A stretch of 64,000 nt of DNA from Bacteroidaceae bacterium (GTDB taxonomy: Bacteria; Bacteroidota; Bacteroidia; Bacteroidales; Bacteroidaceae): contig JAFYOS010000018.1 of the NCBI GenBank assembly GCA_017560125.1, forward strand, positions 248,001 to 312,000, given 5' to 3'. Under the pieces are notes generated by a model that worked only from the letters and a program-made list of their open reading frames with translations, ran no database searches and was not told the origin of the DNA. Each line of letters opens with the position of its first letter. The first letter of the stretch is position 1. Both the position numbers and the translations under genes were made by a program. Of this stretch, positions 20,001 through 29,508 are shown piece by piece.

Positions 20001-22248
20001 GTTCCGAAGAATTGTTAATGTAGATAGCCACCGGCGTCTGTTCGGGAAGCATATAACTACCGGTGTTAAGCAGTGTAATGCTAACATCCACAGTACCGCC
20101 TATTTTCTCTTTGTCTGACGACAGAGAAATTCTTGATATCTGTGCATCGGGCAATGTCTTGTCGCTGACCGTGAACCACAGGTTCGCTTTTGAGAAGCCA
20201 TCGGCCTCGGCATACAATATAGCATTGAATCCATCCTTTGCCACCAGATTATTATTAGACTTGACTACAAAAGAAGCACTAGAAGCACCAGCCGGGATTG
20301 TGACAGTTTTCAAATACTTAATTATTGAATCGCTGTCGCTACTTAGGTTTACCAATAGTTCTTGGGTAGTATCTGAATTGCGTTTTACGGTAACATACAT
20401 CTCTCCGCCCTCTTCCAAGATAGAGGTAGAGGAAGTCAAGTCCAGTGTAGAGCCGTCGTTGTCGTATATCGTCAATGGTACAGATACAACACCGCCTGTC
20501 CTTTCACTGGTTGCATTACAGTTACAAGAAGCAATCCATACCGATGCGGTAATGTTATACGTGCGTTCTCCATCTACAACGACATTATCTATAGGTCCTA
20601 AATTAAAAGTTACAGTCTCCACTCCCTTTTCCATCACAATAGTATTGCGGCCATAATGGATTTCCGAATCGGAGTCATCTGTAAATTTGACAGTAATTTT
20701 TTTATCTAAATTATTGACACGATGTAATTTTGCTGTAATTGCCAATGGACCGGCTGCCTCTGACACGGCATTGCGGTTGATTTCCAATTGTAGGGACGGA
20801 ATATCATTATCCATCAGCTCTACAAACATCATAGCTTTGTTGTACTTATCGGCCGAGGCTGTAAAAGAAACAATCTCATCTACATTAGGAGTATTATCAT
20901 CCAAGGCCTCTACTACAACATTAACAGATGATTGGCCTGCGGGGATTGTAATGGAAGATGGAATCTTGAATTTAGATCCATAGTCACTCTGTAGCTTTAT
21001 ATCTATATCCTTGTCTGATACATTTTCTGTGCTTATTGTAAATTCGATGCTTTTTCCCTCTGTTATCTCCTCGTAGCTGGCTTTTATGCCCAGTGAAGGA
21101 TAGGTATCATCCTCCAGCAATATTTTTGAAGCGGCACTTGTGTAGTTATTTCCTGATATGGAAACTTCAAAAACAGAGTCTTTATCCAATTTCTTGTTTG
21201 CAATAACCTCTGCATAGAAATAAACACCCGAATTCCCTTTTGTAATCTTAACAGTCTCAGGGAACTTCAAACGGTTATCCGATAGCTTTGAAATATTAAA
21301 TACCTCATCTATGTCTGTATTTCCGCTTCTGACTAGCTGGAAACGTATCATCTTTGTCTCAGCTTCATTTACTTTAGCCACATTAGGCAAGAGCGTCAGA
21401 TTCTTGCTTATTTTTAAGACTTGTTCCGAAGAACAGCTATTGTTATCTCTCAGCCATACAGGCTCACCTGAATCGGCATTAGGATTAAGCTTTACCTTGA
21501 TTCGGACATCACCGTTTATTGTGACTAATGACGGGATGGTAATGTCTGCACTGCGGCTAACGATGGCACCTGCCGCCAATTTGTTCTCGTTATAGACAGT
21601 GCCCATAAGCTTAAGCGTTCCATTTGAGCCTTCTAGAAATATCTGCTCGCTCCAGCCGTTGGCAGTCGATGCGCCTCCAATGTTCTCGACCTGCCAATTT
21701 ACTGTAAAGACGCTGTTGGGCGATATATTCATGCTGGAAGAGCTTATATTGAGGACTTTAAGGTCGGCGCTTTTTTCTATTTTTATTTTTCCGACAGAGA
21801 AACCGGTTGCAAGGTTAGTACCGTCGCTTCCACTAAGTACAACTCCCGTAAGCGCCATCGGATGCTCTGTATTCTCATCCAAAGAGTAATCTGCCACTAA
21901 ATTTACAGACATAATTTCTCCGGCTCTTTCCGAAAGAGGCTTGTTGTTTGGGGAATAAGCCAACACCATGTACTTGTTATGCTCAATCTCTTCAACCTTG
22001 ACAGTATGGTCAACGGAGCGCTCCGACATTACGGCGCTGCCTGTCTTCAGACTAATACCATCAGGTACGGTCAGAGTAAACTGCACCGCTACGATGTCGG
22101 CAGTGTTGTTTACATTTATAGGGAGATTTATCGATTGTCCTTGAGCAATTGATACATTCGGTATAGACAATGTATTGTCTTGCGACATGACAGGAAATAT
22201 GTGCAATAATACTATGCACACGAATGAATATATATATTTAAGATTCAT
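14038..22248 (-). CDS. Giant secreted multidomain protein, 2,736 residues
   Basis: Signal peptide (residues 1-22). Then, by eye: cohesin-like domain about 24-152 (IPNVSIAQGQSINLPINV..., VQFTLTVPDG); CARDB-type Ig domain about 155-275; four Calx-beta-like repeats about 285-700; second CARDB about 705-820; further Ig and carboxypeptidase-regulatory-like modules to about 1,320; an unusual cysteine-rich, partly helical insert about 1,330-1,700; more CARDB/Ig modules; a Big_5-like domain near 2,110-2,230; two InlB B-repeat-like units about 2,240-2,400; two GWNWxS modules near 2,413 and 2,496; and a C-terminal sorting-tail-like end (MNVYNVYGIL...LERGIYIIDGQKFIVR). No enzymatic motif. Last gene of a three-gene operon, 6 bases after the previous stop. 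More AT-rich than its neighbours. Likely a surface adhesin or scaffold. Confidence 0.85.
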   Translation of the reverse strand: MNLKYIYSFVCIVLLHIFPVMSQDNTLSIPNVSIAQGQSINLPINVNNTADIVAVQFTLTVPDGISLKTGSAVMSERSVDHTVKVEEIEHNKYMVLAYSPNNKPLSERAGEIMSVNLVADYSLDENTEHPMALTGVVLSGSDGTNLATGFSVGKIKIEKSADLKVLNISSSSMNISPNSVFTVNWQVENIGGASTANGWSEQIFLEGSNGTLKLMGTVYNENKLAAGAIVSRSADITIPSLVTINGDVRIKVKLNPNADSGEPVWLRDNNSCSSEQVLKISKNLTLLPNVAKVNEAETKMIRFQLVRSGNTDIDEVFNISKLSDNRLKFPETVKITKGNSGVYFYAEVIANKKLDKDSVFEVSISGNNYTSAASKILLEDDTYPSLGIKASYEEITEGKSIEFTISTENVSDKDIDIKLQSDYGSKFKIPSSITIPAGQSSVNVVVEALDDNTPNVDEIVSFTASADKYNKAMMFVELMDNDIPSLQLEINRNAVSEAAGPLAITAKLHRVNNLDKKITVKFTDDSDSEIHYGRNTIVMEKGVETVTFNLGPIDNVVVDGERTYNITASVWIASCNCNATSERTGGVVSVPLTIYDNDGSTLDLTSSTSILEEGGEMYVTVKRNSDTTQELLVNLSSDSDSIIKYLKTVTIPAGASSASFVVKSNNNLVAKDGFNAILYAEADGFSKANLWFTVSDKTLPDAQISRISLSSDKEKIGGTVDVSITLLNTGSYMLPEQTPVAIYINNSSEPAYNISLQDNLEPGDSVIIKRKLTLPDFVGNYKVHAVVNEKNTIKELNYTNNSSKLKSISAVSPYTVELNCDKKAYKQGEKVKFSGKIYGDDINGKEVELYIINSNYRHSINLVTDKHGAFETEYEPYSGQMGVFVAGACYPGENLHERMLSFDIYGIKRTTNSNITCELLLGSKHAGYYAISNPSSLPLTGVNVEIVSKPENCAVEVSCPKTVGPNSQFNVEYTITPSAASKGNNWEEVVLKLTTDEGLSMVTTVYYYCRNPKGELKASVTRINTKMIKGRERDYIFAITNVGKGETGNITLELPAWMTSVTPKEMPSLAYGDSATIILRLTPTKDMSPNVPVTGHIGLNCTNGSGLSLPFYIEPVSKTNGTLIVDVCDENTYYTEEKPHVSGASVKVSHPTTGAVISQGVTDANGIYRVILPEGYYSISVSEKSHNSYRNNILIDPETDNTLVVNLSVQAISVDWDVVETVIEDEYSIVTTVNYETNVPVPVVKLNIPSKIEAKELAEGESLIFHATLTNTGLITAQDVELCLPNDIKNFVFEAMTHNEPFALAPQQSVLIPVKVTRISSNVSNKKERARGTRNIDNDPCASQVGTLYYWDCGNDRRWHRYEIALQLGRCRSDDPSTWDPPQRNYNNTGDTRYWPIDIPAPHLPSPNTGGTALYYTPDWAMPNITIEEDDGCEPCQNRMLITLVNCGLSVVPVYGCLSDAASCYHDFTDGEIEARDYVNCALGGIGCTAELCEYLAKNKDFRVEKICQVVGYITDVIQCLMNIPIECDTANTPNRNAIKAKGSGGNSMESDSPSNFIDEFKKKAAIPRDEMVAMSAALTELFGDEAWVSNTTMPELHDLLLAIYFERDSVLCADDFIEFKPEQISKKQLDKFIERFNNTNILLKNGALDSQTDNYIHDEIIKECYDEIDRCEKASQELGYNSTNEMWEAEATAMKKKLEEETSAVCASISLQISQKMVMTRQAFRGTLTVYNGNETTAMSDVRLTLTVTDGLGNVATSHEFQMVPEKLSGFEGELSLNAPWSLDAQNTGVAEILFIPTKYAAPTVEMEYNFGGQLSYVDPYTGLVVTRDLLPVTLTVKPSPNLDLTYFMQRDIRGDDPLTEEIEACEEAEFSLLINNIGNGDATDVRMHTEQPKIIDNEKGLNVEFELMSSQLNGKEKVLALGSSVATEIGTIPAQSSAYVQWWLKGSLLGHFVDYNVSATHVTSYGNPDLSLLNNVTIHELIRSIEVENNANPVVGFVTNDIPDINDTPDMIYLSNAEVDSVMLIKNASMDKLSATKYSVKVSAVHSGWHYGHVLDKTYGIAKIKSIVRQSDGKEIPLRNFWQTDCTLRDGQEPIYENRIHFVDYMTAVENEEYILEFEPTPSVILEVASIEGIPEEGVLAVEPIQKVDVMFNKHIDPTTFTVDDINLTIQGKRQEIGNIGITTSDNKVFTLDFTEINDSFENGFYVLTVQTSDIKDTEGFTGHKGKNASWIMFREGNVQIEAAAYPNSAGTLDVKNAEGTRTLIRSIERDDKDGLKYGTRVKFVATQNEGYEFKNWTVNDEVVSYETEFDYIVLGDMEIVANYIRKAYSVEFDDSIQGGTIIGASTGMYCYGDTLELRAIPSSEYKLVGWIVDGQNISSEETIKICVERKMTVSASFERIIYEQKFSIHRGWNWISTYLDEAIPVKNIHNGALNIISQYDELIYDPELGMVGDIEEFVPGCSYKVNTLYPVTSHYKGYIHNLNDKPIVLKEGWNWVSYPYHDKRNLDDVLVNASDGDYISSLAGFAEYADGYWEGSLEELVPNEGYMYKSVSDKTLLFDFSQEQAKRNIKTDAANEFEKSLQANMYKYPSTMNIVARIYCESQEMDSEDYRIYALAGNECRGESKTAGENLYLTVHGDEPTEIRFVVESVLTGEIYLAEETLHFTSDVFGGRYSPYKITLPKTTGILYRTEDAKHMNVYNVYGILIKSDATMDYLKSLERGIYIIDGQKFIVR

Positions 22249-22254
22249 ACCTTT

Positions 22255-25200
22255 TTATTTTTTGAATACTTTCTTAGTTCCCTTATTATTCCTGATAATA
22301 TTTATACCTTTTACAAGGCCTTTTGCCTTTGTACCGGATATTCCATAAACTTCATTATCCGCATCGTCATAAATATTGACCCCGTCAATCAAGGTGGGCA
22401 TGTCATTATAGATATCCACATCTACTTTGTCTGCATAGGAATCTGATAATGTCGCTGAGTGAATTACGAAATTCCTACCCTCGCCTAAAACAATTTCTTC
22501 GTTCAAAGGCAGAGTGTTTTTATTCAGATAGTAACCTACAACATTAGAATTCAAGGTAGATTGTATCATTCCATACTTGTTCAGATTCCATTTCACATCA
22601 CCGCTTGCCTTAATAGACAGAGCTGCAACCGGAATTTCGGAACGCATAACTATTTGATCGCCTTTCCTGTAGATGTATGCCGAAGATGTACTTATATTGT
22701 TCGAAAATTCTTCCTCTCCCGAATATTGTTCAGGAACAACAATACTGTCCATCTTTTCCAAAAGCATATTGACCATCACAACAACATCTTGGACATTTAC
22801 AAGTGAGTCGGCATAGGCATTGGCTGCCGTATAGTTAAAAGTACGTTCATTATAGCTGCCGAATATGTGTAGGATTGTTGCTTGCAGGTCAAGCACATCT
22901 ACATATCCGTCAAAATTAGCATCAGCAACATCAAACAAAATCTTAAGCAACAGTTCGGTTCCCGTTTTCGAATCGTAAGCATCCATTACATACACAGTCA
23001 ACGTGTCATCTTTCTCGTTAGTATAGACGTTCTGCCCGTATGTGTATGGCCCGTATGAAATACCGTCGCTGTAAGACAATTTTGCCCCCCAACCTTCTTT
23101 TCCTTCTATATATAGGTTTATGGGTGAATTATAGTCCTGCTGTATATGATTATAGGACACGACAGTCGGAATCTGTTCCGCAAAGCTGAGTATAGCCGAT
23201 TCTGTCAATTGCAAGCTCATTACACGTTCAATACATTGCGAATCGAGCTTTAGGTCGGTTACATTCGATGAAATACGAGGACACACTTCCTCTATTCTGT
23301 TTTTTGTCGCATACAGCTTTTTCAGATTCGGGAATGCATTGGCAAATGTTCCAGCATTTCCTTTTAACCTGTTGCCAGAAATATTTATCTCCGTAATACC
23401 CTGCACGGATATAGGGGTTGATGCATCATTCAGTATCAGGCTGTCTATGTATCCTTCCAAATTGTTATACGACAGGTCTATGGTCTCGAGCTTCGGCAGA
23501 GCGAGAATGCTGGCTGGGAATGTTCCTGTTATATTGTTGCCCGAAAGGTCAACAGCAACTATATGCCCATCCTTTAATGTAATACCAGGCACATTGGCTG
23601 TATTCCTATCATTTATCGACAGGCTCCATGGCTGGTTCCAATTTTCGCCACTTCCCAAAGCCTCATATACCTTTTCGAGTATTCGCCATTCCTCTATGTC
23701 AATCTGCTTAAATTCGCTTCCGTCAGTCAGCAAAGGTGCCGGAGAACCATTAAATTGTATCCAGGTATTTCCGGAACCGTTATTTTGCAAATAATCCAAG
23801 ACTGTATTGTCAGCCAACTGCTCTTCTGTGGCCGGCTCTCCTTGTTCTGTTCCATAGGCATGCTTGTAATATACATTATCAAGCACTATATACCCATCGT
23901 TATAGTTTGTTCCGTAGAATGTGCCGCAACATGATGCAGAACTACACGAATATGTTCCGGTATTAAGTGAGTTACGTATTGTCAGGCTATTACTGCCGGT
24001 TGCTACAAAGCCGGCATTTTGGCTGCTGTTCTTTTCGGAAATACGGCCATCAAAAAGACAATTTTCAATGAAAAGATTTCCTGAATTATTCGAGACAAAT
24101 CCACCAATTAAATTTACGCTATCGCTTGTTCCCGAAGCAAGGAATGCCGACGACCAGCAGTTTCTGATGGCAGTTTCATTGTCGCCAGAAACCATAGCAA
24201 CGATACCGCCCACGCCATAGCGTTCTGTCACGATGCTACCACTGACACGCAAATTCTCGATTATTGCATTCTTTATGTGGTGAAATGGTGCGATGTTCGC
24301 CTCTGAAGAGGAATACGCCACTACAAGTGTATGACCATCTCCATCAAATACACCCTCAAACGGAATTTGAGTAGTTCCTATCATTGAAGTGTCATTTGCG
24401 ATGCTTATATCAGCTGTCATTCTTGCACAGGCTTTAGTATTGATCTGCGAGAACGAAGCAAATTCCTGCCAGTCCTGTGCCGTTGCTAACTTATAGAAGC
24501 CGTCCACGTCCTGCTTCAGTGAATTACTTTCTACGATTTTCTTAAAGCCTGACCATCCGCTTGTGGTAGCGTATGCTTCTATAGCCCCTTTGGGTACATA
24601 TAAAATACATTCGTTTTTATCCACACCCTCAAATACATTGTCATTTATTGCAAACAGGTTCTCAGCGATTATACCACTTACGATACTTCCAAGCTTTTGG
24701 CATCCCGAAAAGGCCTTGTTCCCAATGCTTGTTACAGTCTCGGGGATAGTCACATACTCGAGACTGCTGCACTGTAAAAAGGCGTTTGCCCCTATGCTCT
24801 TGATTGTGGATGGCAGATAGGCTATTACAAGGTTTGTGTAATCGAATGCATAGGTTGGTATCTCGGTAACCCCCGTGGCACGCTTAAGGTCGAGCACTGT
24901 ACAATTTGTGTAAGTATTGGCTATTCCATAGTCGTTGTTGTTCATGCTTCCGACAACAGTGATATTTTTCACTTCGCTGCTACTGCCGCTTATAGTCTGC
25001 GAAATAGCCGACGAGAGGCTTCCTGCTTTAAAGTCGTCTATGACAACCTCGCCAAGTTCCCTATTCCAGTAGTTCTTGCCCGGATTACTAGGTGTCGTAG
25101 GGTCATATTCAAAGACTCCATACACTACGGAATTCTTGTCGGGTACAGTGTAGTAGAAATTACGTTCGACAGATAGGGTGTCCCCTTTTTCATCTTCCCA

Positions 25201-25938: not shown

Positions 25939-28900
25939 TTATTTAACAATAATCTTCTTGCCCTTCTGAATGTAAATACCCTTTTGTGTAGGCTTTTCTA
26001 CCTTAATGCCGTGAATGCTGTAGATGTCGCCATCGTCGCTGCTGTCTGTGTCGATGGCGTCAATGCCTGTTGTTCCCAGCCCGTCGATAAGCAACGAGAA
26101 GCGTTCAACGTCCTCGCCCGCACAGGCATTAAAAGAGTACTCTGTCTCATTCAGCGATACTTTAGCGCCTGTCTTTTTATCCAACAGACAGACCGTGCAC
26201 TCCTGTGGAATTCCGGCAAGGGCAATAGTATAGGTGCCGTCGGAATTTATGATAGTATTAAGTTCAACTTTTCCGTTACCCAACGGACGTTCGTTTATTG
26301 AATAATTGACTCCATCGTTTACGGTGTAGATTTGTGGTACTGCAACATTATTGCTCATGAACTTGCTTGCATCCTTTTCTATTTCGTATTGCATTGCAGC
26401 CTTGTTGTTTATTACAACACGAGTTCTGTCCTTGTTAGCACCATCGCTTATTGTAAGGTTGATGACTGTGCGCTTTACAGGTGTGCCACTGGTTTCAGCA
26501 TAATCGGCCGATTCGATTGTACGTACTACTTTGTCTGTCTGTCTTCCTTCTTCATCGAAGACCATTTTTTTATTGCCGACAGGGCATTGAACAAAGAATG
26601 CTTGACCGGGCAGGAGTATGTATGAATCATCAGTCAGGCTATAGGCGGAATATGTTTGGTCGCTCGCATTCCACACTGTTATAGGAGATGAAAAATCGAT
26701 ATATCTTGTGTCGTAGTAACAAGGATAGGGGTTACCTATAAGATTCCAACTGCGATTATGCATGAATTCGCTAGAATACTCATTAAGGATAACCGTTTCG
26801 TCCCCGTTGGCGAAGATTTTATTTTTGTTGGCATTGTCCATTGCCTTAAACCTAAAGTTGCTTTCCGACTGGCTGGTTGTACCAACATATCTGCTTGCCT
26901 GTAGTATATATCCTTCACCGGCTTTCAGAATATCATCGGCGGCCATCTTCACCCATGTGGCATCGAGCTGGCCGTCTGCACGCAGCTGGCCATCGTAACG
27001 GCGTATAATAAAATTAGTTGTACCATCGCTTGTAGGTTCTATTTCGGATACTTTGACATCGAATGGAAGTGTAAAGAAAATCCATTTATTGGTTCTTACA
27101 TTCATATCTATGATAGAATTATCTGCACGCATTATAGAACCATTTACCAACGAGCAGTACCTGTCGTTATAGTTATCCCAGACTGTATTAAACGATGACG
27201 CATTGAATTCCTTGTCCCCTGTTATCTTAAGTGCGCCACAGCTCCAGCTATTTCCGTTATAACCAACCAGAAGGTTTACATTCGGATTGTAGTCAACCGG
27301 CAAATTGTCGGGCAATGCCAGACGGTGATTCCCTAATATAGTTATATTTTGGGGCAAATAGTCTATAGGCTTTATTGTCGGAAATGCGTCCCAATATTGG
27401 GTTTGCTTATAAACATTCAGTGAGATAGAGGGGACATACAATTCACAACCATCGAGATTTGACTTAACTGCAGCTTCTATATATGGAGGCTCTACCGAGA
27501 GACATGTTACTTTTTTAAGGTTTGTGCAATTGTGAAAAAGAGCGGAAGAACCATCAGCAAGTACAAGACTGCTTGGCAGGGTAATCTCTGTAAGTGCATC
27601 GCAACCGCTAAAAACTGGGCCGTCCATTTCATATAGTCCCTCGTTTAGCTCTACTCTTTTCAAAAAATCATTACCACCAAAAGCGCTACTTCCTAAATAT
27701 TGAATAGTCGAAGGAAGCACCAATGTATCTAAAGCGCAATTAGAAAATGCATAACTATTGATCTTATTCAGTCCCTCTGAAAACTGCACTTTCTTTAGCT
27801 GCTCGCAATTTCTGAATGTAGATCCCTGTATAGTGGTCAAAGTGGAAGGCAGTTTAACACTTTTTAGTGTTTTGCAATATTCAAATGCGTCATAGCCTAA
27901 AGATGTGACTCCTTCGTGGATGTCGATGTTACGTAGGCTATAACAATCATAAAAAGCATAATACCCAATTGTGGTAACGGACTGTGGAAGTACAATCTCG
28001 TCAAGCATATAACAATAACGGAACATATAGTTCGATATAGACTTTAATGTGCTTGGAAGTACTATTTTTTGCAATCTATGTCTTCCTTCAAACATATAGT
28101 CATTCAAACTTGTAACAGGTACTCCTGCCATATCTAAGCTTACAAGCCCGGTAAGACTATTTTGTATAATGTAGATATCATCACTGTTTATAGGTCCAGT
28201 AATGACAAGGTTGTTTACGTCTTTAAAATTTTCTATTTGTGCCAATATATTATCGCCTAAAGTGCCCGCCTCGGTAAGTGTGGCATTTATGGTTATACCT
28301 TCTCCTTCGACATAGAACAATCCCCAGCCTGTAGCTTGATATGCTTCACCGCATCCGTCGGGTATATAGGTAATACATGTTTTCGAGAAATCGAAACAAT
28401 AATTTTCGAGATTAGGGGGCACTGTTGACTTGAAGGTTACCTTCAGTTTGCTTGAGTGCCAAAATGCATATTCACCAACTGTCTGCACATTCTTACCGAA
28501 TGTTATTTTGACAAGATTGTCATAATTATAAAATGCGTAATCATAGATGCCTGTTATATTATCATCGAGCACAACGCTGCAAATGGAATTCTTATGTTTA
28601 TACCAAGGGTAATCTGAGCTGTTGTCCAATTCTGGTATATCTCCTTTGCCGCTTATCGTTATTTCATTATTTTCAAGCTTCCATACTAAATTATCAATAA
28701 TACCATAATCGGCTATCTCGCCCTTAATGACATTGTCTTTCAAGGCATAGTATGCCTTTAATTTTTCGGCTATCACAATGATGTCTTCCGCCGCAACATT
28801 TTCGCTATTGCTGTAAATAGCATCTGCCTCCTTCTTCACGTCGCGCAGATTGTTGAGGTAACCTAAGTGAGGACGATATTTATCGGATATTATAGTTTCG

Positions 28901-29508
28901 GTGTAGATTGCAAATTCGGCCATATGAAAGAAGATGCTCGGCGCTGTCACCACAAAACGCAGATAGTTGTAAGGCTGTGATGCTGCTACAACCCCCGATT
29001 CCCATCTTTTGTCTGGTTCCTGTGGCAGGTTTTCATTAAATGTCTTTATGGTTGTAAATGTAGCTCCATCGTTACTTCCCATAACTTCTATTGCTTGTGG
29101 GAAGTTTGCATCAGCGTCCTGGCGTGTGTGATAATTGAAATCGAATCTTTCGATAGCTGTGTCAAGGTTCACCTGTATCCAGTGAACAGGTTCTATGGTA
29201 CTGGTCCAGCATGAGTGAAAGTATGTTGCTGGATTACCGTCTATCAAGTTTATAATGGGGCCTTCATCGCGTTCGGCCTCGTTACACCAAAGAAAATTCG
29301 TTTTGTTTGCGTAGTTGGTCTGTAGTTCCAGCTTTTCGCCGCCTTGGAAACCAGCTTCGTAAACAATAAAAGAATCGACAGTTGCAATCACTGTACGAAG
29401 AGTCTCCAATGCTTCCTGCTTGTCTGCATCGCTGCTTTCATAAGATGGACTTGCATAGCCTGAAATAAATGGTGCAACCAATAGTAATAAGGTCAAAAGC
29501 TTATTCAT
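25939..29508 (-). CDS. Secreted F5/8-type C plus BspA leucine-rich repeat protein, 1,189 residues
   Basis: Start taken at 29508 because MNKLLTLLLLVAPFISGYAS is a signal peptide; a 12-codon extension to 29544 would bury it. Residues about 65-205 form a discoidin (F5/8 type C) carbohydrate-binding domain (LIDGNPATYFHSCW...VHWIQVNLDTAIERF). A short helical linker (210-265) follows. Residues about 320-690 hold at least eight BspA/LRR_5 repeats (for example LPSTLKSISNYMFRYCYMLDE). A beta-rich region leads to a C-terminal tail (DIYSIHGIKVE...KGIYIQKGKKIIVK) resembling type IX sorting tails. First gene of the operon; probably binds glycans or host surfaces. Confidence 0.87.
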   Translation of the reverse strand: MNKLLTLLLLVAPFISGYASPSYESSDADKQEALETLRTVIATVDSFIVYEAGFQGGEKLELQTNYANKTNFLWCNEAERDEGPIINLIDGNPATYFHSCWTSTIEPVHWIQVNLDTAIERFDFNYHTRQDADANFPQAIEVMGSNDGATFTTIKTFNENLPQEPDKRWESGVVAASQPYNYLRFVVTAPSIFFHMAEFAIYTETIISDKYRPHLGYLNNLRDVKKEADAIYSNSENVAAEDIIVIAEKLKAYYALKDNVIKGEIADYGIIDNLVWKLENNEITISGKGDIPELDNSSDYPWYKHKNSICSVVLDDNITGIYDYAFYNYDNLVKITFGKNVQTVGEYAFWHSSKLKVTFKSTVPPNLENYCFDFSKTCITYIPDGCGEAYQATGWGLFYVEGEGITINATLTEAGTLGDNILAQIENFKDVNNLVITGPINSDDIYIIQNSLTGLVSLDMAGVPVTSLNDYMFEGRHRLQKIVLPSTLKSISNYMFRYCYMLDEIVLPQSVTTIGYYAFYDCYSLRNIDIHEGVTSLGYDAFEYCKTLKSVKLPSTLTTIQGSTFRNCEQLKKVQFSEGLNKINSYAFSNCALDTLVLPSTIQYLGSSAFGGNDFLKRVELNEGLYEMDGPVFSGCDALTEITLPSSLVLADGSSALFHNCTNLKKVTCLSVEPPYIEAAVKSNLDGCELYVPSISLNVYKQTQYWDAFPTIKPIDYLPQNITILGNHRLALPDNLPVDYNPNVNLLVGYNGNSWSCGALKITGDKEFNASSFNTVWDNYNDRYCSLVNGSIMRADNSIIDMNVRTNKWIFFTLPFDVKVSEIEPTSDGTTNFIIRRYDGQLRADGQLDATWVKMAADDILKAGEGYILQASRYVGTTSQSESNFRFKAMDNANKNKIFANGDETVILNEYSSEFMHNRSWNLIGNPYPCYYDTRYIDFSSPITVWNASDQTYSAYSLTDDSYILLPGQAFFVQCPVGNKKMVFDEEGRQTDKVVRTIESADYAETSGTPVKRTVINLTISDGANKDRTRVVINNKAAMQYEIEKDASKFMSNNVAVPQIYTVNDGVNYSINERPLGNGKVELNTIINSDGTYTIALAGIPQECTVCLLDKKTGAKVSLNETEYSFNACAGEDVERFSLLIDGLGTTGIDAIDTDSSDDGDIYSIHGIKVEKPTQKGIYIQKGKKIIVK

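Follow-up and report, generated by a model that had tools for sequence, protein, structure and literature searches.

Cohesins and dockerins are the two module families of the cellulosomes of Clostridium, Acetivibrio and Ruminococcus, and the same two families are present at the locus described here. There are also assemblies of another kind: in Clostridium perfringens, carbohydrate-active enzymes linked by cohesins and dockerins form small non-cellulosomal assemblies, and non-cellulosomal cohesin and dockerin modules are reportedly the subject of Peer et al. 2009. The DNA considered here is a window (i.e., the whole stretch that was analysed) of 64,000 nucleotides (nt) from a Bacteroidaceae bacterium (GenBank assembly GCA_017560125.1, contig JAFYOS010000018.1, positions 248,001 to 312,000). 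In this window, a gene for a secreted protein of 1,222 amino acids (aa), with a dockerin near its C-terminus, lies directly before a gene for a giant secreted protein of 2,736 aa, which begins with a cohesin. It is probable that the tail dockerin of the upstream protein binds the head cohesin of the next protein, and that the products of the operon join in this way as a surface assembly.

Within the parts of the published sources that were available, non-cellulosomal modules in archaea have been reviewed, and archaeal versions have been verified to bind (PMC9012536). Genomes of rumen Bacteroidetes that have dockerins are described as lacking any recognizable cohesin, leaving the role of the dockerins unclear, with distant and hence unrecognized cohesins as one possible reason (PMC7260996). 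Scaffoldins have been found in Clostridia (PMC7480376). Cohesins have been found in certain species of Bacteroidetes, and a set of bins, one of them called Bacteroidetes (#136), has yielded cohesins in tandem (PMC6071333); thus, cohesins in Bacteroidetes are not new. What the present analysis adds is the order of neighbouring genes, i.e., a dockerin gene followed by a gene that begins with a cohesin. A literature search over partly available sources, with Peer et al. 2009 outside its scope, found no description of this order.

Within its family, 61 of 399 genomes contain a match to the giant at E ≤ 1e-40, in some cases to its C-terminal part alone. The sample comprised 46 fetched regions and three further loci (L011, L012 and L013); L108 duplicates L012, and there were 48 distinct giants besides that of the window. 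Five of these have no cohesin, one (L011) is a fusion, and one (L147) is cut by the end of its contig on the upstream side, so 41 remain. A dockerin gene was found directly upstream, on the same strand, in all 42 testable giants that begin with a cohesin (the 41 and that of the window), with intergenic gaps of −32 to 288 nt. The dockerins of the 42 upstream proteins are situated 143–225 residues before the C-terminus, and these proteins are 679 to 1,803 aa long (in the 37 not cut at the end of the locus). Because one hidden Markov model (HMM) had been trained on these upstream dockerins, the count was repeated with a dockerin HMM trained without them, which finds the upstream dockerin in 37 of 41 cases at 1e-3 and in 40 of 41 at 1e-2 (L012 being outside this count). 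In L013, the upstream dockerin is recognised by alignment and, among the HMMs, only by the one that includes it. Considering all genes in the giants' own loci, a dockerin gene precedes 45 of the 46 that are cohesin-first, 1 of the 8 with a cohesin placed otherwise, and 1 of the 231 that lack a cohesin.

The same order recurs outside the giant family. The cohesin profile matches 191 of the 399 genomes at E ≤ 1e-7, and a further sample was taken of the best 60 places among the matches listed, by rank with the cohesin profile, excluding giants and places already fetched. Genes were defined by script as the longest non-overlapping open reading frames (ORFs), with priority given to ORFs bearing a module; a gene was called cohesin-first if the cohesin lay in its first 80 residues, and paired if a dockerin gene was directly upstream, on the same strand and within 300 nt. 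Of the 46 cohesin-first genes that could be tested (one more could not), 39 are preceded by a dockerin gene, compared with 3 of 40 genes whose cohesin is elsewhere (counting ORFs truncated at the 5′ end; 14 untestable) and 5 of 335 genes without a cohesin (44 untestable); Fisher's test gives 8e-14 and 2e-40, respectively, as if related genes were independent. The training segments of the dockerin HMM, 30 in all, include four dockerins from these 60 places. The seven misses are short cohesin–dockerin ORFs that themselves head a pair (L163 and L183) and genes in L181, L184 (two), L202 and L205. In an order-level draw of 60 genomes, five, including that of the window, have profile matches at E ≤ 1e-10. 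Six regions from four of these genomes, which belong to four other Bacteroidales families, were chosen after they had matched, and here a dockerin gene precedes 4 of 5 cohesin-first genes; in one genome (G419), the upstream dockerin is detected by our own HMM and not by PF00404 at 1e-5.

The identity of the two modules rests on comparison of profiles. The initial annotation had suggested a cohesin at about residues 24–152 of the giant; at the profile level this proposal holds, for residues 27–152, which can be classified as a divergent cohesin. They follow a signal peptide of residues 1–22 (by eye). PF00963 matches the isolated domain with 23.5 bits (E 6.8e-5; 23.2 bits in a second run) and scores 22.7 bits in a search of the genome; the relative in another genome (G052) reaches 29.1 bits. 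The family's own profile gives 2.0e-42, and contains this domain. Of 25 sampled family cohesins, 13 match PF00963 at E ≤ 1e-3 and 12 fall short. Against the Protein Data Bank (PDB), a profile of 25 rows matches the cohesins 5n5p (E 1.3e-8), 4uyp_A (7.5e-5) and 2xdh (1.1e-4); with a profile of five rows, the best match is again a cohesin, 2xdh, at a non-significant E of 0.22.

Residues 999–1058 of the 1,222-aa protein can likewise be classified as a divergent dockerin. A dockerin pair with an intact first loop and a degenerate second one had been proposed here, and inspection of the loops agrees: loop 1 (residues 1001–1012) is canonical, with DANFDG beginning at residue 1001 (nt 22923), and loop 2 (residues 1035–1046) is non-canonical, with Tyr at position 3. 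The dockerin of the window thus does not have two canonical F-hand calcium loops. PF00404 gives this dockerin 15.6 bits in the genome search and 17.5 bits for the isolated domain, and 12 of 16 members of the alignment, that of the window included, match PF00404 at E ≤ 1. When a profile of 42 related segments was compared by hhalign with dockerins drawn from PF00404 matches, the probability was 99.3%. The best PDB matches of a dockerin profile of 16 rows are cellulosomal dockerins, at a weak E of 0.0048, with an EF-hand protein at 0.073. Among the 42 upstream dockerins, loop 1 is canonical in 34 and loop 2 in 10, and both loops have Asp at position 12 without exception.

The same two partners are found joined in two types of gene fusion, which is classical evidence for association of the separate proteins. 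One genus has five such giants (L148–L152), in which the cohesin, the dockerin and the upstream dockerin gene are all absent, and the N-terminus of the giant is homologous to the head of the upstream protein of L012 (30–32% identity, E 2e-19 to 1e-26). The fusion in L011 attaches the InlB repeats and an internal cohesin, both from an upstream-type protein, to the body of a giant, again without a preceding dockerin gene. Its InlB repeats have 46–53% identity to three upstream-type proteins, and the three best matches of its cohesin are internal cohesins of upstream proteins (42, 39 and 36%), with the remaining internal cohesins of upstream proteins at 29–31%.

Some operons extend the series. 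Six giants bear a dockerin of their own near the C-terminus, and in three of these (L118, L144 and L145) the next gene is cohesin-first; in L121 the next gene is not cohesin-first, and in L122 and L153 it lies on the opposite strand. In L118, L144 and L145, the cohesin of the third protein and the dockerin that precedes it each have six nearest neighbours that are all of the non-giant subtype; therefore, subtypes match within one operon.

A number of results weigh against binding between neighbours, or reduce what the counts can say. In the comparison with PF00963 and PF00404 that the initial annotation had proposed, both domains of the window lie under the gathering cut-offs (24.1 and 22.9, respectively), although the profiles relate them to cohesins and dockerins. 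Of the 42 upstream dockerins, 32 have a non-canonical loop 2 and 8 (among them those of L012 and L013) have no canonical loop at all, which makes it uncertain whether binding of dockerin to cohesin would depend on calcium. From the dockerin side, a cohesin-first gene comes next in only 10 of 30 loci (of 31 loci, one had no stop codon), so the universal reverse rule, by which each dockerin gene would have a cohesin-first gene after it, was rejected. The L148–L152 giants lost far more than the joint, since the fused body begins at about residue 698 of the giant, i.e., about 700 residues were removed, far beyond the two modules. The L011 giant keeps a cohesin despite its fusion, and the identities of this cohesin to internal cohesins of upstream proteins (29–42%) and to those of the giants themselves (20–35%) overlap. 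Directly 3′ of it (L011:18235-21630) are two dockerin ORFs, possibly one broken gene, of which the second is followed by a cohesin-first gene.

The 1,222-aa protein also offers its dockerin a possible partner in the same chain. Because a degenerate cohesin-like domain follows the dockerin there, the main rival explanation is pairing in cis: the dockerin would pack on this domain, as a C-terminal stalk or export cap, and the cohesin of the giant would be a free β-sandwich with some other ligand. The domain is indeed cohesin-like (87.4% by hhalign over 90 columns between the upstream-protein profile and the cohesin profile, against 9.4% for a CARDB control). A dockerin and a cohesin-like domain also share one chain in 34 of the 39 non-giant upstream proteins and in two other proteins of the window's genome, which have the dockerin and then the cohesin-like domain (L008:5175-9032 and L009:5653-9351; labelled GH31-like and CotH-like by eye, the CotH-like protein's dockerin being below the Pfam cut-off). 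In the 41 giant pairs, the distances among dockerins correlate with those among trans cohesins at 0.685 and with those among cis domains at 0.555, and in 30 non-giant pairs whose dockerin is immediately preceded by a cohesin the corresponding values are 0.746 and 0.687, so the raw correlation in cis is also high. Partial Mantel tests, whose permutations ignore phylogeny, separate the two: dockerin and trans cohesin given cis gives 0.537, dockerin and cis domain given trans 0.268, in the giant pairs, and 0.465 and 0.261 in the non-giant pairs. Controlling for residues 166–1000 of the giant leaves a partial correlation of 0.57 in the giant pairs. Thus, the divergence of the dockerin tracks the cohesin of the next gene better than the cohesin-like domain of its own chain, in both sets. 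Pairing in cis, moreover, does not predict that cohesin-first genes should follow dockerin genes, and it is considered unlikely. Two further candidates examined with hhalign were set aside: the domain before the dockerin of the 1,222-aa protein is not supported as a cohesin (13%), and the GH31-type cohesins (coh2) have only a weak claim to the same subfamily (4.5%).

Rather than reflecting a specific joint, the gene order might have been kept by descent, with common building blocks of surface proteins simply remaining together. Single linkage groups the downstream proteins of the 39 non-giant pairs into three clusters (37, 1 and 1) and the dockerin-to-end tails of 40 of 41 upstream proteins of giants into a single one, and a greedy set of pairs without BLAST similarity outside the modules retains only 7 of 84; on the clustering and greedy-set results, counting all pairs as independent was rejected. 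Those seven pairs nevertheless have the same gene order, as do 4 of the 5 cohesin-first genes in the regions selected from the four other families (after matching, as stated above), and the two types of fusion also speak against inheritance alone, which is slightly less likely than pairing in cis. Even less can be said for the dockerin binding a cohesin protein encoded elsewhere, with the cohesin of the giant receiving several dockerin proteins like a scaffold. PF00404 has five weak dockerin-like matches in the window's genome at E ≤ 10, one of them above the cut-off, and multi-cohesin proteins occur in relatives. The genome has only two matches to PF00963 (in two proteins, one above the cut-off) and two to the family cohesin profile, and the subtypes of neighbours match even inside one operon (L118, L144, L145); such hub-like binding is improbable. 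The PF00963 and PF00404 searches of this genome found neither a protein with several cohesins nor a set of cellulases with dockerins, and with only two PF00963 matches and one PF00404 match above cut-off a cellulosome was rejected.

Binding between neighbours therefore remains the preferred reading. The initial annotation had imagined a self-assembling surface complex of neighbours and had compared the binding with that in cellulosomes; a cellulosome-like system in this genome is not supported, and the idea of binding is backed by the pairing in 42 of 42 cases, the two kinds of fusion, the recurrence in other gene families and the co-divergence, together with the identity of the modules at the profile level. 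The 1,222-aa and 2,736-aa proteins would be consecutive subunits of one assembly at the cell surface, in which the former, through the dockerin near its C-terminus, binds in trans the cohesin with which the mature form of the latter begins, forming a non-covalent joint from tail to head. The giant would serve as a long stalk, and the heads (the leucine-rich repeats (LRRs), the InlB repeats, and the F5/8 C domain of a third gene) are probably ligand- or host-binding. The binding of dockerin to cohesin, the surface location, the route of export and an adhesive role are all predictions from sequence. Export by type IX secretion is suggested by a shared tail motif (the C-terminal tail of the giant ends in GIYIIDGQKFIVR) and by the host group. 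SprA is present in the window's genome (PF14349, E 7e-200); the C-terminal tails of the window's proteins have no match to PF18962 or TIGR04183, and one upstream relative (L128) matches PF18962 below threshold.

The features of the window are listed in Table 1. The three ORFs on the minus strand form an operon-like row, with 15 nt between the third protein's ORF and the 1,222-aa ORF, and 6 nt between the latter and that of the giant. The coordinates given for the two modules in the initial annotation were correct; its F5/8 C domain, placed in the pair, belongs to neither of the two, and is found in the third protein, which has no cohesin match and no dockerin match. By eye, the C-terminal half of this third protein (around NLIGNPYPCYYD) seems common to genes upstream of the pair in L110, L119 and L125, so the conserved unit may be three genes rather than two.

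Table 1. Proteins and modules of the operon-like row, in coordinates of the window
Feature	Coordinates	Strand	Content or basis
Giant secreted protein, 2,736 aa	14038..22248	(-)	N-terminal cohesin, CARDB and other repeats, two InlB-like repeats
N-terminal cohesin module of the giant, residues 27-152	21793..22170	(-)	PF00963 and family profile
Secreted protein, 1,222 aa	22255..25923	(-)	Three InlB-like repeats, BspA-type and other LRRs, dockerin, degenerate cohesin-like domain, C-terminal tail
Post-dockerin cohesin-like domain (degenerate) of the 1,222-aa protein, residues ~1082-1172	22408..22680	(-)	hhalign
Dockerin module of the 1,222-aa protein, residues 999-1058	22750..22929	(-)	PF00404, hhalign, loop inspection
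Third protein, 1,189 aa from first ATG	25939..29508	(-)	F5/8 C domain and BspA-type LRRs

Beyond this locus, the results lean, by a modest margin, towards a gene-order code in Bacteroidales, in which the dockerin tail of one gene product docks on the cohesin head of the next, the operon would be a list of parts in order of assembly, some series would run to three subunits, and a share of orphan dockerins would have their cohesin next door.

Other arrangements of these modules were also observed. Three loci (L161:6653-8341, L169:6922-8616 and L184:6455-7819) encode short secreted proteins that contain three consecutive cohesins, with a dockerin gene before the first two and none before the last; at L205:6886-7827, two cohesins and then, at the C-terminus, one dockerin-like loop were noted by eye. 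In Bacteroidales outside the family, loci L258 and L260 (both of G401) and L259 (G446) encode scaffoldin-like proteins, which contain 8, 5, 7 and at least 10 cohesins (the last protein runs off the end of its contig), and G401 and G446 have 36 and 45 PF00404 matches, respectively, at E ≤ 1e-5; these proteins and dockerins are possibly cellulosome-like systems in Bacteroidales. Five genomes (G096, G030, G110, G115 and G078) have 24–36 dockerin matches and only 1–7 cohesin matches at E ≤ 1e-3, and many of their dockerins may have another kind of partner.

The neighbour order bears on the role of dockerins where their partners have often not been found, as the same arrangement in many relatives may explain it. 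Cohesins too distant for Pfam are among those found here, as in the sampled cohesins that miss E 1e-3, and the next gene is a candidate partner for many of the dockerins examined, if not for all, as the count from the dockerin side indicates. The order thus makes the question of partners testable by plain pairwise binding assays, and offers a means of predicting which of the giant surface proteins in gut Bacteroidales act jointly.

The locus shares LRR_5 repeats, in the 1,222-aa and third proteins, with the BspA-type LRR surface proteins; to our knowledge, a dockerin and a downstream cohesin partner are no part of the definition of that family. The cellulosome has the same modules (in PDB entry 4uyp, the cohesin profile matches chain A and the dockerin profile chain B), whereas the window's genome has one cohesin and one dockerin in neighbouring genes, and no scaffoldin was found in it. 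The Clostridium perfringens system consists of secreted enzymes of a Gram-positive organism, unlike the consecutive surface subunits that would be encoded in the operon here. Closest are the non-cellulosomal modules, where both modules likewise occur in an organism without a cellulosome. The family profile matches PDB entry 2xdh, which we take to be a cohesin of Archaeoglobus fulgidus, and the cohesin and dockerin modules of Archaeoglobus are presumably in adjacent ORFs. What distinguishes the present locus from these is an operon order that recurs in many Bacteroidaceae, giant surface proteins built of LRRs and Ig-like repeats and, possibly, export by type IX secretion.

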